In this document: positions 20,541-44,262 of the stretch, piece by piece
Layout: the number at the start of each line of letters is the position of its first letter
Position numbering within the stretch: the first letter of the stretch is position 1
NCBI GenBank assembly: GCA_900470445.1
Contig: UCAU01000011.1
Coordinates: 41,650 to 105,649 of the forward strand
Direction: 5' to 3'
Length of the DNA: 64,000 nt
Source of the DNA: Hyphomicrobiales bacterium
Lineage (GTDB): Bacteria > Pseudomonadota > Alphaproteobacteria > Rhizobiales > Devosiaceae
Translations under genes and position numbers: made by a program
The notes under the pieces: model-generated
The model's database searches: none
Seen by the model: the letters and a program-made list of their open reading frames with translations, nothing else
What the model was told of the DNA's origin: nothing

Positions 20541-21839
20541 ATGACCCAAACCCCCGCTTCGCCCTTTCCCGGCGTCACCTATGTCAAAGCCCCCGAGCGC
20601 TCCTCGATCGGCGACAATGCTCCCGTCGAAACCTTGGTCAGCGAGATCATCGCCAATGTTCGCCGCAACGGCGACGCCGCCGTGCGCGAATACTCGGCTA
20701 GGTTCGACAAGTCCGACCTGGAGGTCTTCGAAGTCACTGCAGCGGAACGCGAATCCGCGCTGGCCGAGCTTGATCCGCAGACCCGCAAGGACACCGAGTT
20801 CGCCATCGCCAATGTGCGAAAATTCGCCCAGGCGCAGCTCGCGACCATCCTGCCGCTCGAAGTCGAGACCTTGCCGGGCGTGCATATGGGCCACCGCGTC
20901 ATCCCCATTCAGCGCGTTGGCTGCTACGTCCCCGGCGGCCGCTATCCCCTTCTATCTGCACCGATAATGACCATCGTCCCAGCCAAGGTCGCCGGAGTCG
21001 ACGAGGTCATCGCCTGCCTGCCCCCCAATGCCCACAAGGCCATGATCGCGGGCTGCCATCTCTCCGGCGCCGACCGCATCTTCCGCATCGGCGGCGCCCA
21101 GGCCATAGCCGCCATGGCCTATGGCACCGAGAGCGTTCCGGCCGTCAACAAGATCGTTGGCCCCGGCAATGCCTTCGTCAACGAGGCCAAGCGCCAGGTC
21201 TTTGGCCCGGTCGGCATCGACCAACTCGCTGGCCCATCAGAGATTTTCGTCGTTGCTGACGCCACCGGCGATGCCGAGATGATCGCTACCGACCTGCTGG
21301 CCCAGGCCGAACACGACATCCGCACCCGCGTCGGCCTCATCACCACCGATAGGGCCCTGGCCGAGGCCACGCTGGTCGAAGTGGAGAAGCAACTCGAGAC
21401 CCTTTCCACCGCCACCACCGCACGCGAAGCCTGGATCAACTATGGCGAAATCACCGTCTGCGCCGACGAGGCCGCGATGATCGCCTATTCCGACCTGATC
21501 GCTGCCGAACACCTGCAGGTGCACACGGCGGACAGCAAGGCCTTCGCCAAAAAGCTGAGGAATTACGGGAGCTTGTTCATCGGCGAACTGGCCAGCGTGG
21601 TCTATTCCGACAAGTGCTCAGGCACCAACCATACGCTCCCGACCATGGGTGCCGGCGCCTATACCGGCGGTCTCTGGGTCGGCGCCTATGTCAAGATCGC
21701 TACGCACCAATGGCTCGATGAAGAGGGTGTCAAGCAGGTGGCGCCACCTGCGGCGCGGCAGTCGGCTAGCGAAGGTCTCGAAGGCCACCGCCGCGCCGCA
21801 CAATTGCGGCTAGATCGCATGCAGGCAAAGTCGAATTGA
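20541..21839 (+). CDS. Histidinol-dehydrogenase-family enzyme 1 (catabolic, HpsN-like class)
   Basis: NAD-dependent alcohol dehydrogenase of 432 residues. HisD-family landmarks include [71 protein letters not shown] (zinc-binding His), the catalytic pair in [20 protein letters not shown] (Asp, His) and a C-terminal EGLEGH. The zinc and general-base positions all seem kept. It sits in a catabolic regulon rather than a his operon, so a four-electron oxidation of another alcohol to an acid is likelier; sulfopropanediol dehydrogenase HpsN is a known example. It is followed by a strong terminator. Confidence 0.75.
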   Translation: MTQTPASPFPGVTYVKAPERSSIGDNAPVETLVSEIIANVRRNGDAAVREYSARFDKSDLEVFEVTAAERESALAELDPQTRKDTEFAIANVRKFAQAQLATILPLEVETLPGVHMGHRVIPIQRVGCYVPGGRYPLLSAPIMTIVPAKVAGVDEVIACLPPNAHKAMIAGCHLSGADRIFRIGGAQAIAAMAYGTESVPAVNKIVGPGNAFVNEAKRQVFGPVGIDQLAGPSEIFVVADATGDAEMIATDLLAQAEHDIRTRVGLITTDRALAEATLVEVEKQLETLSTATTAREAWINYGEITVCADEAAMIAYSDLIAAEHLQVHTADSKAFAKKLRNYGSLFIGELASVVYSDKCSGTNHTLPTMGAGAYTGGLWVGAYVKIATHQWLDEEGVKQVAPPAARQSASEGLEGHRRAAQLRLDRMQAKSN

Positions 21840-21840
21840 G

Positions 21841-21870
21841 CTAAAAGGCCCGCGAAAGCGGGCCTTTTAG
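21841..21870 (+). terminator. Rho-independent terminator
   Basis: Perfect 13-bp stem CTAAAAGGCCCGC / GCGGGCCTTTTAG with a GAAA tetraloop, ending in a T tract, immediately after the hisD-like stop codon. It is symmetric, so it could also act on transcripts from the other strand. Confidence 0.9.
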
Positions 21871-21889
21871 GAACTGCATTCACAGTCGT

Positions 21890-22072
21890 CACCCTTCTCC
21901 CCCTGAGGGAGAAGGTGCCTGAAGGGGCACCGAATTCACGAAGGCGAATTTCGGTTGGATGAGGGTCTCTTCCTAACCTTCTGGCACGGGATGGCGCAGC
22001 ACCCCCCTCACCCTGACCTTCCGCTGAACGCGCCAGGTCGTCCCTCTCCCTCAAGGGGAGAGGGTAAGGAGG
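21890..22072. repeat. Intergenic hairpin repeat element
   Basis: The gap between two convergent genes is bounded by CCTTCTCCC/GGGAGAAGG (21893-21915) and CCCTCTCCC/GGGAGAGGG (22042-22064), with GGTGCC/GGCACC inside. This composition, with GGATGAGGG and CCCTCACCC segments, resembles dispersed rhizobial intergenic repeats. A related block with the CCCTCCC…GGGAGGG style occurs at 31855-31942. Confidence 0.55.
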
Positions 22073-22073
22073 C

Positions 22074-22775
22074 TCAGCTGATCTTATCCGCCTCCGCCCA
22101 GGCCGCCCGCAGCTTCTCGACCGTAAAGCCCGGCGCCCTTGCCGCGGTCAGCACCGGCACTTCCTTGCGCATCACCACGTCGATGGCCCAGGCCATGCGC
22201 TCGATATGCTCGGCCGGAATAACCACCGCGCCATGCCGGTCGGCATGGACCAGATCATCGGGGCGCACCGCCATGCCGAATACGGTCACCGGGCAATCGA
22301 GTTCGGTCACATGCACAAAGGCATGGCTCGGCCCGACCGAGCCGGCAATGACCTGATAGCCCTCGTCAAGCATGCCCAGATCCCGCAACACGCCATTGGT
22401 CACCGTGCCGGCAATGCCCAGACCCTTATGCTGGGCCACCTGCATTTCGCCCCAGAAACCGCCAATGGCGTGGGGATAATCGGTGTCCTCGATTACCACG
22501 ACATTGGGGCCTTCTCCCGCCGAAACGTACTCGTAGTACTGCATGCGTAGCGCCCGCACTTCTGCCGCCGGCTTCTGCGCGGGAGACGATGCCCGTATCT
22601 TCGCCGTGCGGGCAAAGCCCACCACCGGCGGCAGGCTTGGATCGGCGCAAACCACCGGCGTCTTGGTAAAACCCTCGGCGGTCCGCCCGCCCATCACATG
22701 CTCCAGCGCATTGCACACTGTGGGCGTGTCGGCCTTGCGCAGAGCACTCAGCACCTGGGCGGAAATTGCAGGCAT
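22074..22775 (-). CDS. RraA/HMG-aldolase-like protein
   Basis: Protein of 233 residues with the RraA fold, which includes the metal-dependent class II pyruvate aldolases for 4-hydroxy-4-methyl-2-oxoglutarate and 4-carboxy-4-hydroxy-2-oxoadipate. The key segment GIAGTVTNGVLRDLGMLDEG contains the conserved Arg-Asp pair, and VRPDDLVHADRHGAVVIP matches the family. ATG at 22775 follows GGAGG. It is 67 bases downstream of the cupin gene on the same strand and probably in its operon, under operator B. It may be an aldolase, decarboxylase or hydratase-like enzyme of this pathway; the substrate is unknown. Confidence 0.78.
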   Translation of the reverse strand: MPAISAQVLSALRKADTPTVCNALEHVMGGRTAEGFTKTPVVCADPSLPPVVGFARTAKIRASSPAQKPAAEVRALRMQYYEYVSAGEGPNVVVIEDTDYPHAIGGFWGEMQVAQHKGLGIAGTVTNGVLRDLGMLDEGYQVIAGSVGPSHAFVHVTELDCPVTVFGMAVRPDDLVHADRHGAVVIPAEHIERMAWAIDVVMRKEVPVLTAARAPGFTVEKLRAAWAEADKIS

Positions 22776-33213: not shown

Positions 33214-33360
33214 ATCATTCTCCTGACAGTGACCGGCGCGCCCCTCAGGCCATCCGCCGCCCATCCCTATTGTCGTTCACGCTCCCGCAGCCGTGCCAGG
33301 TCACAAATCTACCTCACACTGCGCCAGTGTCTTCCGCACGTCATAATTGGTAAGCGGGCT

Positions 33361-33396
33361 TGCATACGAATGCAATAGATTTTGCATTCGTATGCA
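33361..33396. promoter_or_regulatory. LacI-regulon twin operators D and E
   Basis: TGCATACGAATGCA (33361-33374) and its exact reverse complement TGCATTCGTATGCA (33383-33396) start 22 bases apart, about two helical turns, allowing side-by-side binding of two dimers. They lie about 150 bases upstream of the binding-protein gene of the sugar transporter. Confidence 0.75.
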
Positions 33397-33667
33397 AATT
33401 GGGGTGTCTAGGCCAATGATCGTGACGTGAAAGTGGTCCGGTCCCGCGGGAGGTTCGGGATGGAGATTTGTGCCTTAGACCGCTTGTGGCCATTTGCAGG
33501 ATGATGAGTGACTCGGGCATTTCGCGGAGGGTTGCGCCGGCTGCAGCTGTTGGACCGAGTTCATCGTTCAAGCGCGCAAAGCCATATGCACATGATTGCA
33601 TGATACCTCATAAAAAATGCCATATAAATTATTCTATGTAACTGATATTGAAGGATAAAATGTAATT

Positions 33668-33681
33668 TGCACGCATGTGCA
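33668..33681. promoter_or_regulatory. Candidate operator for the second LacI regulator
   Basis: TGCACGCATGTGCA has the same TGCA-N6-TGCA frame as sites at 43900 and 44023 near the second lacI-type gene, but a different centre from operators A-E. It lies in the promoter region of the fused-permease operon. Confidence 0.55.
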
Positions 33682-33819
33682 TAATTGTTGCTTCCTTGTA
33701 TTGACTATGTGGCGTCTGCCGTGGAACATTCATTCCAACGCGCCGGGATTGGCGCGTGCTGTCCGATAGAGCTGGCATAACCGGCCTGGCAGCAGGGGGA
33801 TGACTATGGGAGGACCCGC

Positions 33820-33885
33820 ATGATTGGGACCGTGATGTCGTGCGCGCTATTTCTGCGTGCACTGGCCAAGTGGACTGGCCGATGA
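33820..33885 (+). CDS. Candidate 21-residue leader peptide coupled to the permease gene
   Basis: A short frame begins with ATG at 33820, six bases after GGGAGG (33808-33813). It ends with a TGA that overlaps the ATG of the fused permease (ATGA at 33882). The permease itself has no clear ribosome site. The encoded peptide has a short hydrophobic core (VMSCALFLRALAKW). It is probably a translational-coupling device; a functional peptide cannot be excluded. Confidence 0.5.
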   Translation: MIGTVMSCALFLRALAKWTGR

Positions 33886-35732
33886 GCGTGTCGGAAACCT
33901 CATTGCGCCCGGTGCAGGATAAGCGGTCTGTCGCCCAGCCTTCGGCCAGTCAGGCGTTGAAATATCGTCTCAAGGTGGCGATGCGCGAGCCGACGACGCT
34001 GATCGGGATTTTCGCGGCGCTGCTGTTTGCCTATCTGATCCTGGTGCCCATCCTGTCCATGCTGACCGATGCGGCGCGGGTCCAGTTTGGCGATGAGCGG
34101 CGCATTGCTTCGGACATTGGCAGCTTCACGCTCTACTATCTGACGCGCACCTTCCTCTCGCCGATTTCGCGCGATCTGTTCTGGCAGCCGCTGCTCAACA
34201 CATTGTCGGTTGCGGCCGGAGCGATCAGTCTGTCCATGCTGGTGGGTATTCCGCTGGCCTGGCTGATCAGCCGCACCGATATGTTCGCTCGGCGCTGGTT
34301 CGCTACGGCATTGATCGTGCCCTATATGCTGCCGGCCTGGACCTTTGCGCTGGCCTGGACCACGCTCTTCAAGAACCGCACGGTGGGCGGGCAGCCGGGC
34401 TGGTTTGAGGCCATGGGCCTGACGCCGCCCGATTGGCTGGCCTATGGGCAAGTGCCGATCACGGTGATTCTGGCGCTGCATTATTCGCCGTTTATCATCC
34501 TGCTGTTCGGCACGGCTTTGCGCCGGTTCGATAGCCAGCTTGAGGATTCTGCGCGCATTCTGGGCGCCCGGCCGAGCCAGGTGGCCTGGCAAGTGATCTT
34601 GCCGCTGATGCGCCCGGCGCTGCTGTCGGCCATCGTGCTGATCTTTGCCAAATGCCTGGGCGAATTCGGCGTGGCCTATGTGCTGGGCCTGCCGGTCAAG
34701 TTTGACGTGTTGGCGACCTCACTGTTCCGCAATATCGCCTCGCGCCAGACCGGCGTGGCAGCGGTGGTGGCGGGCTCGATCATGCTGATCGGTATCGTGA
34801 CGCTGTTGATCGACGCCAAGCTGGTCAAGGAAGCCCGCCGCTTCGTCACTATCGGCTCCAAGGGCACTATGAACCGCCAGTCGCGCCTCGGCGTGCTGCG
34901 CATTCCGGCGACGGTGTTTGCCGGGCTGATCTTCATGCTCAGCGTTGGACTGCCGCTGCTGACGCTGCTGCTCTCCACCGTTATGAAGCAGCCGGCGCGG
35001 TTTACGCCCGACAATTTCACGCTCGATTACTGGATTGGCACTAATCTCGATACCGTGGCGCTGCGCACCGGCATCCTGCTCAGCCGGGACCTGTGGATGG
35101 CGGCGTGGAACACGCTGTGGATCGTCGGCGTCGCTTCGGTCACCTCGGGCATATTGGGGCTGCTGGTGGGGTATGTCGTGGTGCGCACGCCGCTGCGGCC
35201 GCTCTCGGTGTTCCTGCGGCAGATCACCTTCCTGCCTTATCTGGTGCCCGGCATCGCCTTTGCCACGGCCTATCTCTCGCTCTTTGCCGTGCAGCGCGGC
35301 CCGATCCCCGCGCTCTATGGCACGGTGACCATCCTGATGCTGGCGCTGATTGCCGACCAGATGCCCTATGCCTCGCGCGCCGGTATCTCGGCCATGATGC
35401 AGCTGGGCAAGGACCCTGAAGAGGCCGCACAGATTTCCGGCGCCGGCTGGCTGCGGCGGATGATCACCGTGGTGATCCCGATCCAGAAGGGATCGCTCGT
35501 CACCGGCATTCTGCTGCCCTTCATTTCGGGCATCAAAGGGCTGAGCCTCTTTGTGATCCTGGCCGTGCCGTCAACCGATGTGCTGACCACCTTCTCGCTG
35601 CGCCTGGTCGATTATCACTACACTCAGGCTGCCAATGGCGTGGTGCTGATCATTGCCGGCATCGCCTATTTCGGAACGCTCGCCGCGCAGCGGCTCACCA
35701 AAACCAATATCGCCGAAGGGCTGGGAGGCTAG
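33882..35732 (+). CDS. FbpB/AfuB-type fused ABC permease
   Basis: Inner-membrane protein of 616 residues made of two tandem permease halves of about six helices each, as in iron(III) transporter FbpB and sugar-phosphate transporter AfuB. EAA-type loops appear in each half: QLEDSARILGARPSQVAWQV near residue 225 and KDPEEAAQISGAGWLRRMIT near 510. The first half starts with FAALLFAYLILVPILSMLTD. It is followed after three bases by its ATPase gene. The associated phosphatases point to an organophosphate rather than iron. Confidence 0.85.
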   Translation: MSVSETSLRPVQDKRSVAQPSASQALKYRLKVAMREPTTLIGIFAALLFAYLILVPILSMLTDAARVQFGDERRIASDIGSFTLYYLTRTFLSPISRDLFWQPLLNTLSVAAGAISLSMLVGIPLAWLISRTDMFARRWFATALIVPYMLPAWTFALAWTTLFKNRTVGGQPGWFEAMGLTPPDWLAYGQVPITVILALHYSPFIILLFGTALRRFDSQLEDSARILGARPSQVAWQVILPLMRPALLSAIVLIFAKCLGEFGVAYVLGLPVKFDVLATSLFRNIASRQTGVAAVVAGSIMLIGIVTLLIDAKLVKEARRFVTIGSKGTMNRQSRLGVLRIPATVFAGLIFMLSVGLPLLTLLLSTVMKQPARFTPDNFTLDYWIGTNLDTVALRTGILLSRDLWMAAWNTLWIVGVASVTSGILGLLVGYVVVRTPLRPLSVFLRQITFLPYLVPGIAFATAYLSLFAVQRGPIPALYGTVTILMLALIADQMPYASRAGISAMMQLGKDPEEAAQISGAGWLRRMITVVIPIQKGSLVTGILLPFISGIKGLSLFVILAVPSTDVLTTFSLRLVDYHYTQAANGVVLIIAGIAYFGTLAAQRLTKTNIAEGLGG

Positions 35733-35735
35733 TTC

Positions 35736-36869
35736 ATGCCAACGATCAACCTGCGCGGAGCGCAAAAGAACTACGGCGCCAATTCGGCCAATGCCGTGTC
35801 GGACCTGGACCTCGATATTGGCGACGGCGAGTTCATGTGCCTGCTCGGCCCTTCGGGCTGCGGCAAGACCACGACGCTGCGCATGATTGCCGGGCTCGAA
35901 AACCTCTCCGGCGGCGAAATCCATATCGGTGACCGCATGATGGATTCGGTCACCCACGGCGTGTTCGTGCCGCCCGAAAAGCGGGAAATGGGGCTGGTAT
36001 TCCAGAGCTATGCGCTGTGGCCGCATCTGACCATCGAGCGCAATACCGATTTCGGCCTGCGCCTGCGCAAAGTGCCCAAGGCCGAGCGTGAAGCGCGGGT
36101 CGACAAGGTGATGCGGGCGCTCGATATCGAGAAATACCGTGACCGCTATCCCTCTCAATTGTCGGGCGGGCAGCAGCAGCGCGTGGCTCTGGCGCGCATG
36201 CTGGCGGTCAATCCTGGCGTGCTGCTGCTCGACGAGCCGCTGTCCAATCTGGATGCACGGTTGCGGCTCGAAATGCGGGCCGAGCTCAAACGTATCCATG
36301 CCGAGTTCAAAACGACGATCGTGTTCGTCACTCATGACCAGTGGGAAGCGATGACGCTGGCCACCACGATCGCGGTGATGAGCGAGGGCACATTGCAGCA
36401 GATGGGAACGCCCGACGATATCTACGAGCGGCCGGCCAACCGGTTCGTGGCCGAATTCGTCGGCAGCCCGCCGATCAATATTCTGGACCTGATGGCCGAT
36501 AGACGCAGCGCTTCGGCGCAGGCCATGGGCGCGTTCCTCAGTGAACGCTATGCCAGCCTGGGCGATGTCGGCTCGGTCGGGTTGCGGCCCGAGGCTCTGC
36601 GGATCGACGAGGACGCATCGGTGGTTCCCGCCACGGCGTTTCAGCTGCCCGCAACGGTCACCGGCATTCTGCCTACCGGCGGCAATTGGATTCTCGAATT
36701 GCGCAGCGGCGATGGCACGCTGTTCCTCACCACCCATGAAGCGCCGGAAATTGCGGTGGGTGCGGTGGTGACTGTCTGGGCCAAGCCTAAGGCGCTGCAT
36801 GTGTTCGACCGCAAGGGCCAGCGTCTCGATGCTGCCGACCGGCTGATGCGCACGCCCAAGGCCAAGTGA
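35736..36869 (+). CDS. ABC transporter ATPase (FbpC/AfuC/PotA type)
   Basis: ATPase of 377 residues with an N-terminal ABC domain and a C-terminal TOBE-type region. Walker A is LLGPSGCGKTTTLRMIAGLE, the Q-loop region LVFQSYALWPHLTIERNTDF, the signature LSGGQQQRVALARMLA, Walker B LLLDEPLSNLDARLR, and the H-loop IVFVTHDQWEAMTLATTIAV. GGGAGG precedes the ATG. It energises the fused permease upstream; the first binding-protein gene follows within 30 bases. Confidence 0.9.
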   Translation: MPTINLRGAQKNYGANSANAVSDLDLDIGDGEFMCLLGPSGCGKTTTLRMIAGLENLSGGEIHIGDRMMDSVTHGVFVPPEKREMGLVFQSYALWPHLTIERNTDFGLRLRKVPKAEREARVDKVMRALDIEKYRDRYPSQLSGGQQQRVALARMLAVNPGVLLLDEPLSNLDARLRLEMRAELKRIHAEFKTTIVFVTHDQWEAMTLATTIAVMSEGTLQQMGTPDDIYERPANRFVAEFVGSPPINILDLMADRRSASAQAMGAFLSERYASLGDVGSVGLRPEALRIDEDASVVPATAFQLPATVTGILPTGGNWILELRSGDGTLFLTTHEAPEIAVGAVVTVWAKPKALHVFDRKGQRLDAADRLMRTPKAK

Positions 36870-36895
36870 CAACGAAGATAATCGGAGACGCCTTG

Positions 36896-38008
36896 ATGAC
36901 GAAGACGGTTACTACCGCGATCCTGACCAGCCTTGTGGCCCTGTGCTGCGCCAGCCCCATTCTGGCGCAAGAGAGCGCCGAGCTTGAAGCGATGATTGCC
37001 GCCGCCAAGGGCGAGCCGCCTATCACTGTCTATGCGGTGACCGGCAAGATCGTTGAAACCGCTCAGGCCTTCACCGCCAAATATGGCGTCACCGCCGAAG
37101 GCAAGAAGGTCTCCGAAGCCGACCAGATCGAGCTGCTGCTGCGCGAGCACCAGGCCGGCAACAGCACGGGCGACGTGACCGTGGCCGCCGATGTGGCGGC
37201 GGTGATGGGGCAATTGGTGCCCGAAGGCGTGGTGGAGAATTTCGTGCCGCCCGATCTGGCGGCCAATATCGCGGCGCCCTTGCAGGACCCGCTGGTGCTG
37301 GTCACCGACCCCCATGTCTGGACCTATAATACCGAGGCTTATGAGACCTGCCCCGTAACCAATATCTGGCAGCTAACGGAGCCCGAATGGAGCCGCAAGG
37401 TTGCGATGCTCGATCCACTGGTCAAGCCCGCCTATGCCGATTGGTTCAACCAGCTTGAGACCAATCATGACGCCGAAATGGCGTCGGCTTATGAAGCGCT
37501 CTACGGCAAGCCACTGGTCACCGACGAGAAAAGTGCGACGGCGGCCTGGGTTAAGGCCTATGCGGAAAACCAGCCGCTGGTGGCTGACTCTTCGGCCGTT
37601 GCTGATGCCATTGGCGCGCCGGGGCAGGCCGAGCCCTATTTCGGCATCAGCTCGGTCGCCAAATATCGGGACAATACCGAAAAGGGCTACAAGCTGGGTA
37701 TTTGCGGCGGCATGCAACCCTTTGCCGGCTGGCTCTATCCCGGCTTTGGCATGGTCGCAGCAGGCACCGACAGCCCCAATGCCGCGCGGCTCTTCATCCA
37801 CTATTTGCTGACCGAAGAGGGCATCGCGCCCCAGACCATTGACGGCAAGATTTCGTCCAATAGCACCATTGCGCCCAACCCCGAGGAGGCCTCGGGCGTC
37901 GCCGCTGTGATGGGCGAATTGATGGCCTATGACACCACGACGGCCAAGCTCGATTTCGAGCTGCGCCAGGACTGGCAGGATTTCTGGCGCATCCACTACT
38001 CGCGCTAG
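36896..38008 (+). CDS. ABC substrate-binding protein 1 of a tandem triplet
   Basis: Periplasmic FbpA/AfuA-type binding protein of 370 residues with the signal peptide KTVTTAILTSLVALCCASPI then LAQ. It shares many segments with the next two genes: ITVYAVTGKIVETAQAFTAK, CPVTNIWQLTEPEW, a DPL…Y-DWFNQ block, GAPGQAEPYFGISSVAKYRD, and the C-terminal RQDWQDFWRIHYSR. Two cysteines (in ETCPVTN and LGICGG) recur in all three and may form a disulfide. It is the most divergent member. ATG at 36896 gives the signal peptide at the start. The ligand is inferred to be a phosphorylated compound from the downstream phosphatases. Confidence 0.83.
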   Translation: MTKTVTTAILTSLVALCCASPILAQESAELEAMIAAAKGEPPITVYAVTGKIVETAQAFTAKYGVTAEGKKVSEADQIELLLREHQAGNSTGDVTVAADVAAVMGQLVPEGVVENFVPPDLAANIAAPLQDPLVLVTDPHVWTYNTEAYETCPVTNIWQLTEPEWSRKVAMLDPLVKPAYADWFNQLETNHDAEMASAYEALYGKPLVTDEKSATAAWVKAYAENQPLVADSSAVADAIGAPGQAEPYFGISSVAKYRDNTEKGYKLGICGGMQPFAGWLYPGFGMVAAGTDSPNAARLFIHYLLTEEGIAPQTIDGKISSNSTIAPNPEEASGVAAVMGELMAYDTTTAKLDFELRQDWQDFWRIHYSR

Positions 38009-38079
38009 CGGCAGGTTCGCCGCCCCGCACATAAGCCGAATGGCATGGCGGGGCAGGGAGTGATGAGGGAGGAGACGAA

Positions 38080-39198
38080 ATGTTGAATTTGAAACAAGCG
38101 GGGGTGCTGGTCACCAGTTTTGCCGCACTGCTCGCGGTATCGCCGGCTTTGGCGCAGGAGGCGTTCGATCTGGATGCGCTGATCGCGGCGGCCAAGGGCG
38201 AGGAGCCGATCACTGTCTATGACAGCACCGGCAAGATCGTGGAAATGGCTGACAACTTTACCGCCAAATACGGCGTCAAGGCCGTGGGCACCAAGGTCAA
38301 GGCGACCGATCAGCTCGAAATGATCATCCGTGAAGCCCAGGCCAATAATGTGCAGGGGGATGTGTCGATCATCAGCGATGCCCCGGCCGCCATGGCGCAA
38401 TTGATGCCGGAGGGTTTCGTCACCAGCTGGGTGCCGCCGGATATGGCCGACAGAATAGCGCCAGAATACCAGGACCCGCTGGTCGTGGTCACCAGTGCCA
38501 ATGTGTGGGTCTACAATACGGCACTCTACGATGCCTGTCCGATCAGTAATATCTGGCAGCTGACCGAGCCCGAATGGAAGGGCAAGGTCGCCATGCAGGA
38601 CCCGCTCAACAAGGCGTCCTATGTGGACTGGTTCAACCAGACCCAGGCGCATGGCGATACGCAGGTGGCGGCGGCCTATAAAGAGCAATACGGCAAGGAC
38701 CTCGATACCAGTGGAGAAAGCGCCATGGCCCAATGGGTCAAGGCGCTGGCGGCCAATGGGCCACTGCTGACCGATGCCGATGCTGCGGCCGCTGAAGCAG
38801 TCGCGGCGCCGGGGCAATCGGAGCCTTTTGTGGGCCTCGTGAGCTCGGCCAAGTTTCGCGACAACGCGGAAAATGGTTTTACGCTGGGCCTGTGTAGCGA
38901 GCTAAAGCCTTGGCTTGGCTGGATGTATCCCGGCGTCGGGGTGATCACGGCTGGGAGCAATAGTCCGAACGCATCCAAGCTTTTCATCCACTACGTCATG
39001 ACTGCCGAGGGCATCGCGCCCCAGGCAGAAGACGGGAAAATGTCGACCAATCAAGATGTTGGTCTGCCGGCCGATGAGCCCTCCGGGATCGGAGCGGTGC
39101 TGGATCGGGTGTTTCCCTACAGCATGGCGACCAGCCTTGAGGATTGGGATGCCCGCCAGGATTGGCAGGATTTGTGGCGGTTGAATTATGCCAAATAA
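38080..39198 (+). CDS. ABC substrate-binding protein 2 of a tandem triplet
   Basis: Second paralogue, 372 residues, with a signal peptide (GVLVTSFAALLAVSPALA then QE). It is close to copy 3: AAKGEEPITVYDSTGKIVEM, MIIREAQANNVQGDVSIISD, CPISNIWQLTEPEWKGKVA, YVDWFNQTQ, GLVSSAKFRDN and an end RQDWQDLWRLNYAK. The conserved cysteine pair is in DACPISN and LGLCSEL. A strong GGGAGGAG site precedes the ATG, so it can be translated independently. It may bind a related ligand with different affinity. Confidence 0.83.
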   Translation: MLNLKQAGVLVTSFAALLAVSPALAQEAFDLDALIAAAKGEEPITVYDSTGKIVEMADNFTAKYGVKAVGTKVKATDQLEMIIREAQANNVQGDVSIISDAPAAMAQLMPEGFVTSWVPPDMADRIAPEYQDPLVVVTSANVWVYNTALYDACPISNIWQLTEPEWKGKVAMQDPLNKASYVDWFNQTQAHGDTQVAAAYKEQYGKDLDTSGESAMAQWVKALAANGPLLTDADAAAAEAVAAPGQSEPFVGLVSSAKFRDNAENGFTLGLCSELKPWLGWMYPGVGVITAGSNSPNASKLFIHYVMTAEGIAPQAEDGKMSTNQDVGLPADEPSGIGAVLDRVFPYSMATSLEDWDARQDWQDLWRLNYAK

Positions 39199-39217
39199 GG
39201 CAGGGGGGAATACTGGG

Positions 39218-40345
39218 ATGAACGTTCGATTTCCGAAGGTGAATGCACTCCTGACGACGTCACTTTTGCTGGGCGTGAGCCTCTTGACTGCGCCGGTGAT
39301 GGCGCAGGAATTCAACCTCGATGCGCTGATCGAAGCGGCAAAAGCCGAGCCGCCGATCACCATCTACGACAGCACCGGCAAGATCGTGGATATGGCCGAA
39401 GCTTTCACGGCCAAATATGGCGTGCAGGCGACGGGGCAGAAAGTGTCGGCCAATAGCCAGCTCGAAATGATCATCCGCGAAGCGCAGGCCAATAACGTGG
39501 CAGGCGATGTGGCGCTGATCACCGATGCGCCGGCGGCTTTGGCGCAATTGCTGCCGCAGGGGATCGTGGAAAGCTGGGTGCCGGTGGATATGACCGACAA
39601 GATCCCGGTCTATTTCCGCAATCCGCTGGCGATTTCGACCAATGCCAATGTGTGGACCTACAATACCGAGGTCTATGACAGCTGCCCGGTGAGCAATATC
39701 TGGGAACTGACCGAGCCCAAATGGAAGGGCAAGGTGGCCTTTGTCGATCCGCTGACCAAGGGCACCTATACCGATTGGTTCAACCAGATGCAGACGCATG
39801 CCGACGCCGAACTGGCGGCGGCCTATAAGGCCCATTTCGGCACGGATCTGGATGTGAGCGGGGAGACGGCGACCCAGCAATGGGTCAAGGCCTTCGCGTC
39901 GAACGGGCCGCTGGTGACCGATGGCGATGATCCGGTGTCGGAAGCGGTGGGCGCGCCGGGGCAGGCCGAGCCGTTCTTTGGCCTGATGAGCTCGGCCAAG
40001 TTCCGCGACAATGAGGACAAGGGCTATAAACTGGGCCTTTGCGCCGAGATGACCCCCTGGGTGGGCTGGACCTATACCAAGCTGGCCCTGATCGCCACCG
40101 GCACCGACAGCCCCAGCGCCGCACGGCTGTTCGTCCATTACATCCTGACCGAAGAGGGCATCGCCCCGCAGGTAGCCGACGGCAAGATGTCGACCAATAG
40201 CGAAGTGGGCATTCCCGCCGACGAGCCCTCGGGGCTAGCCGAGCATGTCGCGGCTTTGTTCCCCTATGATGCCAGCACGGGCCTCGATGACTGGGACACG
40301 CGGCAGGACTGGCAGGATTTCTGGCAAATGAACTACCGCAAGTAA
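39218..40345 (+). CDS. ABC substrate-binding protein 3 of a tandem triplet
   Basis: Third paralogue, 375 residues, with a signal peptide (LLTTSLLLGVSLLTAPVMA then QE). It is very similar to copy 2 (ITIYDSTGKIVDMAEAFTAK, MIIREAQANNVAGDVALITD, CPVSNIWELTEPKWKGKVAF, TDWFNQMQTHADAELAAAYK, RQDWQDFWQMNYRK). The cysteine pair is in DSCPVSN and LGLCAEM. ATG at 39218 is used; a start at 39188 would overlap the previous gene and lengthen the signal peptide. A hairpin follows before the phosphatase genes. Confidence 0.83.
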   Translation: MNVRFPKVNALLTTSLLLGVSLLTAPVMAQEFNLDALIEAAKAEPPITIYDSTGKIVDMAEAFTAKYGVQATGQKVSANSQLEMIIREAQANNVAGDVALITDAPAALAQLLPQGIVESWVPVDMTDKIPVYFRNPLAISTNANVWTYNTEVYDSCPVSNIWELTEPKWKGKVAFVDPLTKGTYTDWFNQMQTHADAELAAAYKAHFGTDLDVSGETATQQWVKAFASNGPLVTDGDDPVSEAVGAPGQAEPFFGLMSSAKFRDNEDKGYKLGLCAEMTPWVGWTYTKLALIATGTDSPSAARLFVHYILTEEGIAPQVADGKMSTNSEVGIPADEPSGLAEHVAALFPYDASTGLDDWDTRQDWQDFWQMNYRK

Positions 40346-40389
40346 GCCTCACCCCATCGGCCCGGGTCGCCTCCACGATCCGAGCCTAC

Positions 40390-40414
40390 GGTCCCCGGAG
40401 CTGTTCCGGGGACC
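40390..40414 (+). other. Intergenic hairpin after the binding-protein triplet
   Basis: A perfect 10-bp stem GGTCCCCGGA / TCCGGGGACC with a GCTGT loop and no T tract. It lies between the binding-protein genes and the phosphatase genes. It could stabilise the upstream message or cause partial termination, and might be a repeat-derived element. Confidence 0.55.
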
Positions 40415-40436
40415 ACTTCAAACCGCAAGAGTGTCC

Positions 40437-41315
40437 ATGACCAGCCCCAGTGCCAAGCTACTCCCCCAGCCCGACCTGCTCGATGTGGCGCGCCGCGCTG
40501 CTTTGTTGGTGGGCGATCCGCTGCGCGCCGCGTTCCGCTCGGATATGGCGGTGGATTACAAGGTCGACCTGCATGACATCGTCACCGTGCATGACAAGCA
40601 GAGCGAGGTCAGTATTCGCGACTTCATCATGGGCGAAGTGCCCGATTCGACCTTTCTGGGCGAAGAGGGCGGCTCGACCGGCAATGGCAGAGTGCATTGG
40701 TATGTCGATCCGATCGATGGCACATCCAATTTTGCGCGCGGCATTGCCTTTTGGTGCGTCTCCATTGCCGCAGTGATTGACGATGAAATCGTCGCCGGGG
40801 TCATCTATGACCCGATCGCCGAAAACCTGTTCAGCGCTGACCAGAGCGGCGCCTGGCTCAATGGCAAGGTGTTGCGCTCGAGCGCCGTGACCGATGAGCG
40901 GCAGGCGACTTTGATCACCGGCTATCCCGTGTCGCGCGATTTCCGTATTGACGGCCGGGACGTGGCGCTGGCCGATTTTGGCGAGCTGACCGAGACATTT
41001 TCGACTATGCGCCGCCCTGGCAGCGCGGCGCTGAGCTTGGCCCATGTGGCGGCCGGCTGGGCGGATGCGGCGACGGGCTTTGGCGTCAATGCCTGGGACG
41101 TGACTGCGGCCATCCTGATCCTGCGGCAAGCGGGAGGGCGTTATCAGGGATTGACCATGGGCAAGGTTGCCGAAGGGTCCCCCGACTTTCTGTGCCCTGG
41201 TTATATCGCTACGGGGCAGGGAGGCGATTACCCCACCTTGCAGCGGGTTGCCGAGGGGGTTTCCGCGCGCCGGCAACGCGCCAAGGACGACCTGCCCGGA
41301 GTTGATGTGAAATGA
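40437..41315 (+). CDS. Inositol-monophosphatase-family phosphatase 1
   Basis: Magnesium-dependent sugar/inositol phosphatase fold, 292 residues. Metal-site motifs are intact: FLGEEGGS near residue 80, DPIDGTSNFARG near 100, and AWDVTAAILILRQAGG near 225. ATG at 40437 is chosen over GTG at 40431, a close call. The gene overlaps the second phosphatase by four bases. Family members hydrolyse inositol phosphates, histidinol phosphate, fructose-1,6-bisphosphate or nucleotide 3'-phosphates. Linkage to an AfuABC-like transporter suggests it strips phosphate from the imported compound. Confidence 0.82.
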   Translation: MTSPSAKLLPQPDLLDVARRAALLVGDPLRAAFRSDMAVDYKVDLHDIVTVHDKQSEVSIRDFIMGEVPDSTFLGEEGGSTGNGRVHWYVDPIDGTSNFARGIAFWCVSIAAVIDDEIVAGVIYDPIAENLFSADQSGAWLNGKVLRSSAVTDERQATLITGYPVSRDFRIDGRDVALADFGELTETFSTMRRPGSAALSLAHVAAGWADAATGFGVNAWDVTAAILILRQAGGRYQGLTMGKVAEGSPDFLCPGYIATGQGGDYPTLQRVAEGVSARRQRAKDDLPGVDVK

Positions 41316-42130
41316 ACGTGGTTATGGCTAGCCCCAGCCTAGCGGTCGATCTCGATGCGCGCCAGGCATTCTGTCTGGACCTGGTGCGCACGGCGGGCAC
41401 TATCGCGCGCGATGGCTTTGTACAGCGCTCGGAAGCCCAGATTGCCATGAAGGGACCGCAGGATTTTCTGACCGAGACGGATGCGGCGGTTGAACGCCAT
41501 ATCAAGGCACGGCTTGCCGAGGCTTTTCCGGAGGACGGTTTTCTGGGGGAAGAGACTGGCGGGGTCGTTGTCGGTGAGCAAATCTGGGTGGTTGACCCGA
41601 TCGATGGCACGGCCAATTTTGCCCGGCAGATTCCGCATTTCTGCATTTCCGTCGCTTTGGTATCGGGCGGCGAAACTGTGTTGGGCGCTATCTACAATCC
41701 AGCATTGGACGAGCTCTATTTTGCCCGGCGCGGGCAGGGGGCCGCGCGCAATGGCACCCCGATCTGGGTGGCCGGTACGACGCGGCCGGATGCGGCCTGT
41801 GTCGAACTGGGTTGGTCGACCCGGGTGCCGCAGCATTTCTATCTCGATGCGCTGACCAAAATTCTGGACGATGGCGCCAATGTGCGCCGCGCCGCCTCGG
41901 GCGCGCTGGCGCTGGCCTATGTGGCCGATGGGCGCTCCGATGGTTATGCCGAACTGCATATGCAGCCCTGGGATTGCCTGGCCGGTCTGCTGCTGGTGGA
42001 AGAAGCCGGTGGCGTGGTGGCGCCCTTTCTTGCTGTGAACGGGTTGGCGAAAGGCGGGGCGGTGCTGGCGGCAACGCCGGCCATTGCCGAGGCCATGAGC
42101 ATCTCGACCGGCATTCCGCTGGTTGTTTGA
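41312..42130 (+). CDS. Inositol-monophosphatase-family phosphatase 2
   Basis: Second paralogous phosphatase, 272 residues, with FLGEETGG near residue 75, DPIDGTANFARQIPHF near 95 and QPWDCLAGLLLVEEAGG near 215. It starts within the stop of the first (ATGA), so the two are probably made in equal amounts and could form a heteromer or act on different positions or isomers. No exact substrate can be read from the sequence. Confidence 0.82.
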   Translation: MNVVMASPSLAVDLDARQAFCLDLVRTAGTIARDGFVQRSEAQIAMKGPQDFLTETDAAVERHIKARLAEAFPEDGFLGEETGGVVVGEQIWVVDPIDGTANFARQIPHFCISVALVSGGETVLGAIYNPALDELYFARRGQGAARNGTPIWVAGTTRPDAACVELGWSTRVPQHFYLDALTKILDDGANVRRAASGALALAYVADGRSDGYAELHMQPWDCLAGLLLVEEAGGVVAPFLAVNGLAKGGAVLAATPAIAEAMSISTGIPLVV

Positions 42131-42217
42131 AACCGTGCCGGCAACGCTGCGGACTGCGTTGCCGGACCTTCTGCCAATTGAGTTCGCAATGCCCGGCAAA
42201 CCGGGCCGGAGACTATC

Positions 42218-42841
42218 ATGGACCTTGCCTCCCCGCGCTATGACCGCCCCAAGCTCAGCCGCATCGTGGAGAATGTGGCGCCCTATGGCGTCGATATTTT
42301 CATCAGCGGCATGGAGGGCGCGAGCGATGTTGCGCTGCTGCGCGAGAACGGCATTTCTACCGTGGTCAATTGCGCGGTGAACCTGGATTTCAACTATGTC
42401 ACCGAGCCGGCCGTGGAGGCCAACCAGTCCCAGATCGGGCATGGCGCGGGGGCGATCCGCTATTACAAGCTGGGGCTGATCGATGGGCCGGGCAATCCCG
42501 AGACCATGATGCTGGCCGGCTATTATCTGCTGCAGGGGGCATTCAGCCAGATCCTGCCCGAACGGCCATCCTATCCGCGCCGCGAGCGGGGCAATGTCCT
42601 GGTCAATTGCCGGGGCGGGCGCAGTCGTTCGGTGACGCTGGTGGCTCTATTCCTGCACCATGCCATGCCCGAAATGTTCCCCACCCTGGATATCGCGCTT
42701 GATCATGTGCGCACAAGGCGGCAATTGCGGCCTGATGAATGGTTCGAGGCGCCCAAGCCCATGCTGATTGCATCGGCCCGCAAGGCCTCGGAATGGATTT
42801 CGCGCATCGACGCGGAAACCGAGCGCGGCAAACCGGCATGA
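42218..42841 (+). CDS. Dual-specificity/PTP-like phosphatase
   Basis: Protein of 207 residues with a CX5R phosphatase loop, VLVNCRGGRSRSVTL near residue 130; the residue before Cys is Asn rather than the usual His. A likely general-acid Asp is in GLIDGPGNPE near 90, and the N-terminal FISGMEGASDVALLRENGIS resembles dual-specificity phosphatases. It is 87 bases after the second IMPase gene. Such folds include inositol-phosphate and sugar-phosphate phosphatases as well as protein phosphatases. The context favours a small-molecule substrate. Confidence 0.75.
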   Translation: MDLASPRYDRPKLSRIVENVAPYGVDIFISGMEGASDVALLRENGISTVVNCAVNLDFNYVTEPAVEANQSQIGHGAGAIRYYKLGLIDGPGNPETMMLAGYYLLQGAFSQILPERPSYPRRERGNVLVNCRGGRSRSVTLVALFLHHAMPEMFPTLDIALDHVRTRRQLRPDEWFEAPKPMLIASARKASEWISRIDAETERGKPA

Positions 42842-42853
42842 CGAATGCCGGGT

Positions 42854-43882
42854 CTAAACAGCCGGACGTGGTAACACCGAGCGGCGCCAGATCGGCACAG
42901 GTTTAAACGGAGCAATAGTCGGTGCCCATTCTCCGGGCTCGGTTTGGGACAGTAGCTGCACGATGTGCTCTACCATCTCATCGATAGGCTGACGGAACGT
43001 CGTCAGCGCGTATGAGTCCCAGCCCGCCTGTTCGATATCGTCGAACCCGACAATGCTGACATCCTGCGGTACGCTTAGCCCGAACGAATGCCGCACCGCA
43101 TCCATACATCCCAGTGCCAGCAGGTCGGTGACGCAGAATATGCCATCGGGCGCTGCGCTGCGGCTGAATAATTGCCGCGCGGCCTCGGCGCCCGCAGCGT
43201 ATCCGGTAGGGCCGGCCTTGATGACCGGAATGGACATACCATCCTGCGTGGCAGCGGCCGTGAACGCCTCCTCGCGCGCCATAAGGCTGGGCGTGCCGGC
43301 AGTGGAGGAGACCACGGCGAGCCGCTGGCAGCCGGCCCGGCGCAGCATCAGATAGGCCTCCCGTGCATTCTCTGCGTTCTCCGCAGCGACATTCACCGGG
43401 CCCGCGATATGGTCGCTGCGGTTGATCAGGATGACCCGCTGGCCATTGGCGACGCAACTGGCGATCAGGGAGGCATCGGGGGTGCCGGAGAGTACGATGA
43501 CGCCATCGGCGCGGAAATTGAGGGTCTGGCGCAGGGCGTTGGCGACGCTGCCCGCATCGCCGGTGGTGTTGATCACCATGCCGACCTTGCCGATGGTCTG
43601 CAATTGGCGGGTCATTTCGTCGAGCATGCGGGCCTGGTAGGGCGTGGGGATATCGGAAACGACAATACCCACGATATTGCTGCGCTCATGGGAGAGGCCG
43701 CGGGCCAGGTGATTGACGTGGTAACCGAGCATATCGGCCGCATGCAGCACCTTCTTTCGGGTCGCGTCAGAGACGCTGGCCCCTTCCGTAAAGGTACGCG
43801 ACACGGCCGAGCGCGAGACGCCCGCCAGCCGCGCGACCTCTTCGGCGCTCACAAAGCTGCGGTCTCTGGTATCCGTGCTCAA
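42854..43882 (-). CDS. LacI-family regulator of the phosphatase/transporter locus
   Basis: Regulator of 342 residues. The LacI DNA-binding domain is SAEEVARLAGVSRSAVSRTF and SDATRKKVLHAADMLGYHVN. Its helix-turn-helix shares SAVSRTFT with the regulator at 24015. The sensor domain follows (NIVGIVVSDIPTPYQARMLD; DGIFCVTDLLALGCMD; VSIVGFDDIEQAGW). The start is TTG at 43882. It converges with the phosphatase gene and reads away from the ABC/FAD operon. A TGCA-N6-TGCA site in its own promoter (43900) suggests autoregulation, and the like site at 33668 suggests control of the 33.8-42.8 kb operon. Confidence 0.87.
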   Translation of the reverse strand: MSTDTRDRSFVSAEEVARLAGVSRSAVSRTFTEGASVSDATRKKVLHAADMLGYHVNHLARGLSHERSNIVGIVVSDIPTPYQARMLDEMTRQLQTIGKVGMVINTTGDAGSVANALRQTLNFRADGVIVLSGTPDASLIASCVANGQRVILINRSDHIAGPVNVAAENAENAREAYLMLRRAGCQRLAVVSSTAGTPSLMAREEAFTAAATQDGMSIPVIKAGPTGYAAGAEAARQLFSRSAAPDGIFCVTDLLALGCMDAVRHSFGLSVPQDVSIVGFDDIEQAGWDSYALTTFRQPIDEMVEHIVQLLSQTEPGEWAPTIAPFKPVPIWRRSVLPRPAV

Positions 43883-44262
43883 TCAAACAACCCTCATGCT
43901 GCACGCCCGTGCATGGCCAATTTACTAACGTGCCGAACACCTGTTGTCCAACGGCAAGCGGAGCATACTTCAGACTGTCGCCAGACCGGCGTTGATGCGG
44001 GACGCGGAGGGTGGATTCATTTTGCAATCGCGTGCAATCCAAATCGTTCGGAGGGTCGCCCACCAATTATTGGTACAAACTGTCATTTGATTTTTCCGCG
44101 CCAAACGGAAGCGGAAAACAAAATCTACGATCAAGCCTCAGGCTGAACTCTCCGTCGCGTTTGCCGGTTTCAGCGCCAAAGGGGCGAATTGACAGGGATG
44201 CCGCGCACTTTCAATCTCTACTAAGTTTATGGGATTAGGCGGGTCACTTCCGCTAATGTGCG
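43883..44262. other. Intergenic region between lacI-type gene and ABC/FAD operon
   Basis: No gene is seen in these 380 bases. They hold the operator at 43900, a second TGCA-N6-TGCA site TGCAATCGCGTGCA at 44023-44036, and a stem TTTTCCGC/GCGGAAAA (44092-44118) that could be a terminator or regulator site. Promoters for both divergent units must lie here. Confidence 0.55.
43900..43913. promoter_or_regulatory. Candidate operator of the second LacI regulator (self)
   Basis: TGCACG-CC-CGTGCA is a perfect palindrome around two central bases, 17 bases from the start codon of the lacI-type gene. Confidence 0.65.

Follow-up and report, generated by a model that had tools for sequence, protein, structure and literature searches.

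Based on the analysis of a 64,000-nucleotide stretch of DNA from a Hyphomicrobiales bacterium of the Devosiaceae (the window, by which we mean this whole stretch), we propose that eight genes on the plus strand at positions 33820..42841 and a convergent LacI-family regulator gene beside them probably form a LacI-controlled system for the use of phytate-derived inositol phosphates, in which an ABC transporter would import these compounds and phosphatases would dephosphorylate them in the cytoplasm. The eight genes are real as placed, neighbouring genes overlapping or lying apart by no more than 87 bp, and encode a fused permease, an ATPase, three solute-binding proteins (SBPs), two phosphatases of the inositol monophosphatase (IMPase) family and a VH1-like CX5R phosphatase of the dual-specificity type (DSP). 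An earlier note on this DNA had claimed the same gene order and composition on one strand, which held in full; missing from it were the convergent lacI gene, the operator-like sites (at 33667 and near 43.9-44.0 kb) and the remaining members of the regulon. Its suggestion that sugar or inositol phosphates are imported and dephosphorylated in the cytoplasm appears to be the best fit, by inference, and we narrow the candidate ligand to inositol phosphates because of phytase neighbours, an operator before a phytase gene, nearby iol genes and a NUDIX hydrolase resembling diphosphoinositol polyphosphate phosphohydrolase (DIPP) beside the operator.

The association of these genes is beyond chance, because the same genes recur in nearly all of 77 related loci. 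The loci were found with the permease in a search of one genome per species over 84,980 species. The search gave 111 relatives, and the best 80 were retained; the set of 77 is without the weak or partial loci L096-L098 and includes a paralog (L079) and two loci truncated at a contig end (L029, L034). The permease being present by construction, an SBP was found in all 77 loci, an IMPase in 76, a DSP and a LacI in 75 each and a calcineurin-like metallophosphoesterase in 66; 44 had a Na/Pi cotransporter. The transporter of L079 is a paralog that neither phosphatases nor LacI accompany, L053 has no DSP in the locus or in the whole genome, and L023 has no LacI within the DNA stretch read; similarly, no metallophosphoesterase match was found in the stretches read of the gammaproteobacterial loci L073 and L074. 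Hosts among the best 80 include the Rhizobiales, the Rhodobacterales, Photobacterium, Vibrio, Saccharospirillum and an Aeromonadaceae metagenome-assembled genome (MAG), and plasmid records extend them to Klebsiella and Erwinia, in which IMPase and DSP are fused into one protein. The DSP gene is sparse, as with the window genome counted it was found in 10 of 249 genomes of the order (five with close relatives) and in 6 of 398 genomes of the phylum. In S. meliloti 1021 the module is located on pSymB. The ABC operon SMb20155-8, reported as raised in an ecpR1 mutant (PMC4414408), may by its position be this copy. The annotation of the transporter as a true iron(III) importer, with phosphatases nearby by chance, would account for the annotation only; the recurrence of the IMPase and the DSP in 76 and 75 of the loci, their fusion, the LacI gene with its operator and the links to phytase and inositol genes make it very improbable.

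A LacI-type operator, TTGCAC-N4-GTGCAA, to which the regulator is predicted to bind, was found ahead of the permease gene in organisms ranging from Devosia to Vibrio and Klebsiella. Its core, TGCAC-N4-GTGCA, was present in 46 of 51 permease upstream regions with a LacI at least 47% identical to that of the window, compared to at most 2 for any dyad in shuffled sequence; these regions include close relatives and are not independent. With no more than one mismatch, the full site was found within 350 bp upstream of 37/79 permease, 38/80 IMPase 2 and 31/76 LacI matches, and of none of the ATPase (0/93), SBP2 (0/66) and SBP3 (0/59) matches. Exact sites numbered 38 in 20 carrier genomes (19 with at least one), against one for the reversed control; 30 of them shared the contig stretch that carries the module and 8 did not. 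One of the off-module sites, a perfect one in Devosia limi, precedes a beta-propeller phytase gene on another contig. Others lie before a Na/Pi gene in a Mesorhizobium MAG, before another FbpA-type transporter in Pelagibacterium lentulum and, in Devosia faecipullorum, next to genes for a LacI (59%) and an ABC transporter. The window genome contained nine sites at up to one mismatch as compared to one for the control, and two of the nine fall in the window. A perfect site was found about 80 bp before a metallophosphoesterase gene on another contig (C26), and a one-mismatch site, likewise on another contig (C61), between a second LacI gene (83% identical) and a Na/Pi-PhoU transporter and NUDIX pair. 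Parts that relatives often cluster are scattered in the window genome, yet still marked by the operator. At two mismatches the window held 5 sites against 2.7 expected, the weaker sites not being significant alone.

Phytases of three classes adjoin the module, namely in Klebsiella, Vibrio and Devosia Root635. On the Klebsiella plasmids (three read of four tallied) the module is preceded on its own strand by genes for a KdgM porin and a histidine acid phosphatase, and the phosphatase is PhyK-like with a 3-phytase as its best PDB match (2wnh, 5.9e-83). In Vibrio HDW18 an enzyme similar to multiple inositol polyphosphate phosphatase (MINPP) is encoded divergently from the module, with a perfect operator between; its best PDB matches were a histidine acid phosphatase (6rxd, 5e-70) and MINPP (7zgf, 9e-66). 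A beta-propeller phytase is likewise divergent from the module in Devosia Root635, where sites of one and two mismatches lie between them.

Additionally, the module was found close to inositol catabolism genes. Carriers were counted from 50 of the best 80 loci and the genome G000, giving 51. An iolD gene scoring over the NCBIfam cut-off was located at most 13.4 kb from the DSP gene in 5 of the 50 carriers that have a DSP (Devosia Root635, D. naphthalenivorans, Pelagibacterium lacus, P. sediminicola and Neorhizobium SHOUNA12A), with 0.37 expected, which corresponds to a Poisson probability of 4e-5 if the cases are independent and a mean genome of 5.2 Mb is assumed. The next-nearest iolD on the rows used was 160 kb away; the count left out five weak second DSPs (37-45%) and a 51% DSP (G625:C15) situated 33 kb from iolD. 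Over the same cut-off, iolD was present in 47 of the 51 carriers versus 85 of the 249 genomes of the order, a comparison confounded by phylogeny. Of the five genomes with a DSP in one gammaproteobacterial genus, four have a lone DSP gene beside iol genes; three of these stretches hold iolC, D, E, A, B and G and the fourth (L133) all but iolA, and in one of the four (L149) the iol genes were confirmed over NCBIfam cut-offs. The NUDIX hydrolase of the window genome gave 19 PDB matches at E<=0.001 (best 3.3e-7), variants of a few proteins, of which 18 are named diphosphoinositol polyphosphate phosphohydrolase, and no Pfam family at 1e-3.

The best NCBIfam match of the permease was PhnU2 (TIGR03262) with 128.7 bits against a cut-off of 593, and the ATPase scored 364/432 bits for UgpC, its best match, and 329/458 bits for PhnT2, both under the cut-off; an identity as the phosphonate importer PhnS2/T2/U2 thus falls short of the NCBIfam equivalog scores. 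The SBPs matched no NCBIfam family at 1e-3. The likeness to the sugar-phosphate importer AfuABC that the earlier note had drawn turned out to be loose: the SBP profile matched the glucose-6-phosphate (G6P)-binding protein VcA0625 of V. cholerae (8x1a, E 7e-5, best over stretch 38-180 only), but did not recover AfuA of Actinobacillus (4r72/4r73/4r74) at E<=0.01, and the best fold match of the SBP model was a metal-citrate binder (MctA). Assignment of the ligand by sequence and fold was tried and dropped, because the fold places the SBP with FbpA, AfuA, P5PA and MctA alike. The presence of three SBPs may mean that several inositol phosphates are carried. A sugar-phosphate importer like AfuABC, through which hexose or heptose phosphates would enter to be dephosphorylated or used directly, would explain the transporter and LacI; we consider it unlikely, as AfuA itself was not recovered at E<=0.01 and as the phytases, the iol genes and the DIPP-like NUDIX hydrolase near the module or its operator would be left unexplained. 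An inositol phosphate ligand would account for the transporter, LacI, phytase, iol and NUDIX links together and is the best fit.

Both IMPases belong to the IMPase superfamily by PF00459 and by their metal-ligand motifs, GEE, DPIDGT and WD, which were intact in 16 of 16 aligned sequences; with 115.6 and 161 bits against 332 they stay under the equivalog cut-off for inositol-1-monophosphatase (NF008027). The DSP has the CX5R P-loop, with residues C131 and R137 invariant in 116/116 sequences, and the DSP fold, its PF00782 score of 30.4 bits being below the gathering score of 33.5. The earlier note had counted separately expressed phosphatase genes as evidence against its proposal. The spacing of the genes and the fusion of IMPase and DSP into one protein point away from this, in part. 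An inositol phosphodiester, e.g. glycerophosphoinositol, is an alternative candidate ligand, which the metallophosphoesterase would split and the IMPase finish. A calcineurin-like phosphoesterase occurs in 66 of the 77 loci or beside the operator, the sole PDB match of the metallophosphoesterase at E<=0.01 is Listeria Lmo2642, and the linkage to iol genes agrees with such a ligand; however, the phytase neighbours and the operator before a phytase gene favour phytate products, and the two loci L073 and L074 gave no metallophosphoesterase match in the DNA read, so that we regard a phosphodiester as improbable.

Import and dephosphorylation of partly digested phytate is the probable role of the module, and may proceed as follows. 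Secreted phytases, whose genes lie away from the module or, in some relatives, next to it, would cut phytate to lower inositol phosphates, which the SBPs would capture in the periplasm and the fused permease and ATPase would import. Once in the cytoplasm they would lose their phosphates to the CX5R phosphatase and both IMPases, assisted by the metallophosphoesterase and the NUDIX hydrolase encoded elsewhere beside the same operator, and the freed myo-inositol would enter the iol pathway. Surplus phosphate may exit via the Na/Pi transporter, which fits as an outlet because export of Pi is described as being promoted by the Na/Pi cotransporter YjbB (PMC11389368). Inositol or one of its phosphates is the probable inducer. 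More tentatively, and with less confidence than in the role just given, we suggest a proteobacterial regulon that imports intact inositol polyphosphates, perhaps with pyrophosphorylated ones among them, and hydrolyses them in the cytoplasm, with inositol passing to the iol pathway and surplus phosphate being exported; under this suggestion the cytoplasmic set of CX5R phosphatase, DIPP-like NUDIX hydrolase, metallophosphoesterase and IMPase would parallel eukaryotic inositol-phosphate turnover.

Several observations weigh against the use of phytate-derived inositol phosphates. IMPases accept many substrates, and the closest solved relatives of the DSP are mostly protein phosphatases. Phytase families are rare in carriers (PF02333 in 3/19 and PF00328 in 1/19 genomes or records, and PF00328 in 1/12 further carriers), and on the two PF00328 counts a histidine acid phosphatase as a general partner of the module was unsupported. 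In Klebsiella the operator sits between the phytase and permease genes, and therefore co-regulation of the phytase is not shown. Phytase and iol genes are linked to the module or share its operator in some relatives and not in the window genome, where a link to its own phytase and iol genes was looked for and none was found: both are on other contigs, with no operator at up to two mismatches in 18.6 kb around the beta-propeller phytase gene and none within one mismatch on the 14 kb contig of the iol genes. The iolD linkage perhaps represents three events rather than five, with P about 0.006, and 4 of the 51 carriers are without an iolD over the cut-off. Of the operator-like sites, 4 of the 8 exact off-module sites in relatives and 5 of the 9 in the window genome, one of them perfect (C43), have no evident link. 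The full site at up to one mismatch is absent from the permease matches beyond the 37 of 79, and in loci of the S. meliloti type (LacI 42-46% identical) it was found before the IMPase 2 operon instead (23/37), the commonest dyad upstream of the permease being GGAAT-N4-ATTCC (14/41).

Phosphate control of the gammaproteobacterial modules is possible on the basis of their upstream sequences. A PhoB-like box at up to three mismatches was found in 15 of 95 upstream regions versus 18 of 475 pieces drawn at random from the same loci; the upstream region of the window permease was not among the 15. Seven boxes were gammaproteobacterial, at about -24 to -156, with two mismatches in L074, L083, L134 and L153 and three in L114, L073 and L154, and the other eight all had three mismatches, three being of one sequence. 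Several gammaproteobacterial operons have both PhoB-like and LacI sites, two of them in genomes without iolD over the cut-off, and use as a carbon or as a phosphorus source may differ by lineage.

Related arrangements were seen beside the main set of loci. A distant variant (L112:4107-10592, L113, L111, L099-L103) combines a DSP 31-45% identical to that of the window and an MBL-fold hydrolase with a different SBP, permease and ATPase, and with LacI in most. A second AfuB-like system with its own IMPase adjoins the module in L017:2280-8710 (Shinella), L035, L056, L059, L060, L063 and L093, and in Shinella it includes two PhnS2-like SBPs and two-component genes. On R. leguminosarum pR132504 (L110:4805-9615) a module fragment, IMPase and DSP, occurs with two NUDIX hydrolases, a YvcK/CofD-like protein, a HAD phosphatase and another FbpA-type transporter. 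Outside the best 60 rows, SBP homologs were present in 22 Agrobacterium plasmid records.

Table 1. Genes and operator-like sites of the module in the window.
Feature	Position	Strand	Remarks
LacI operator TTGCACGCATGTGCAT	33667..33682		1 mismatch to TTGCAC-N4-GTGCAA; upstream of permease gene
Fused ABC permease, single chain with two transmembrane modules, 630 aa	33840..35732	+	PF00528, 2 stretches
ABC transporter ATPase with TOBE_2 domain	35736..36869	+	PF00005, PF08402
Periplasmic solute-binding protein 1 (SBP1)	36866..38008	+	PF13531 (SBP_bac_11); 53% identical to SBP2
Periplasmic solute-binding protein 2 (SBP2)	38080..39198	+	PF13531 (SBP_bac_11); model pLDDT 92.8; FbpA/AfuA/MctA-type fold
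Periplasmic solute-binding protein 3 (SBP3)	39188..40345	+	PF13531 (SBP_bac_11); 61% identical to SBP2
IMPase-family phosphatase 1	40431..41315	+	PF00459 (Inositol_P) 2e-50; metal motifs intact; no signal peptide apparent by eye
IMPase-family phosphatase 2	41312..42130	+	PF00459 (Inositol_P) 7.4e-58; metal motifs intact; type of the gammaproteobacterial modules read
VH1-like CX5R phosphatase (DSP)	42218..42841	+	Basic P-loop CRGGRSRS; PF00782 3.9e-7
LacI-family regulator, convergent with operon	42854..43882	-	PF00356, PF13377
Weak operator-like site	43899..43914		2 mismatches; just upstream of lacI
Operator-like site	44022..44037		1 mismatch; upstream of lacI, between lacI and next plus-strand gene

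According to the Devosia neptuniae annotation, the permease may start 42 bp further in. Tandem palindromes TTGCAT-N4-ATGCAA at 33360-33375 and 33382-33397, upstream of a divergent sugar-type ABC operon (33264, minus strand), are perhaps operators of another LacI-family regulator. The Rfam search of the window gave nothing at gathering scores. ARAGORN called a tmRNA-like gene with an unusual tag at 21527-22075, which is probably a false positive because Rfam found no tmRNA at the gathering score.

The gene set, widespread in soil bacteria, is apparently undescribed; it would combine an organophosphate importer of the FbpA type with a regulon for the dephosphorylation of inositol phosphates. The earlier note knew of no described system with this composition, and we found no description in the CC-licensed literature, most subscription journals lying outside the search. 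If the more tentative suggestion holds, this would be, to our knowledge, the first inositol-phosphate importer of bacteria, masked by its annotation as an 'iron ABC transporter'. Phytate is a plant form of phosphorus, and much of the organic phosphorus in soils consists of inositol phosphates. If the proposal is true, inositol phosphates are taken up directly by many members of the rhizobia, agrobacteria, devosias and Rhodobacterales and by some vibrios and enterobacteria, models of phytate turnover, cross-feeding and phosphorus release in the root zone would change, and a common 'iron importer' misannotation would be corrected; the question is readily testable in S. meliloti 1021. In a survey of bacterial inositol use, the main text does not contain 'ABC transporter' or 'phosphatase' (PMC9430895).

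Among known systems, AfuABC, described from Actinobacillus pleuropneumoniae and Citrobacter rodentium, is similar in that an FbpA-type SBP, a permease and an ATPase annotated as ferric import a phosphorylated organic compound. AfuABC has one SBP, which is reported to bind G6P, fructose-6-phosphate and sedoheptulose-7-phosphate with His205, Asp206 and Glu229 of AfuA as sugar-contact residues (PMC4546632), whereas the module has one to three SBPs, LacI, IMPases, DSP, other phosphatases and an inositol-linked context. The pyridoxal-phosphate importer P5PAB has another ligand, and the description in its abstract is without phosphatases (PMC8427247). The putative 2-aminoethylphosphonate transporters PhnS2/T2/U2 share the fused permease, but the module is without phosphonate genes, and the ferric importer FbpABC, which is marked by adjacent tyrosines and bound Fe(III), shares its SBP fold with the SBP of the window. 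Bacterial phytate degradation and iol catabolism are connected to the module in some relatives, in which phytase or iol genes neighbour it or carry its operator. In the usual scheme phytate is hydrolysed by phytases outside the cytoplasm and the cell takes up free inositol, whereas the module would import the inositol phosphates themselves.

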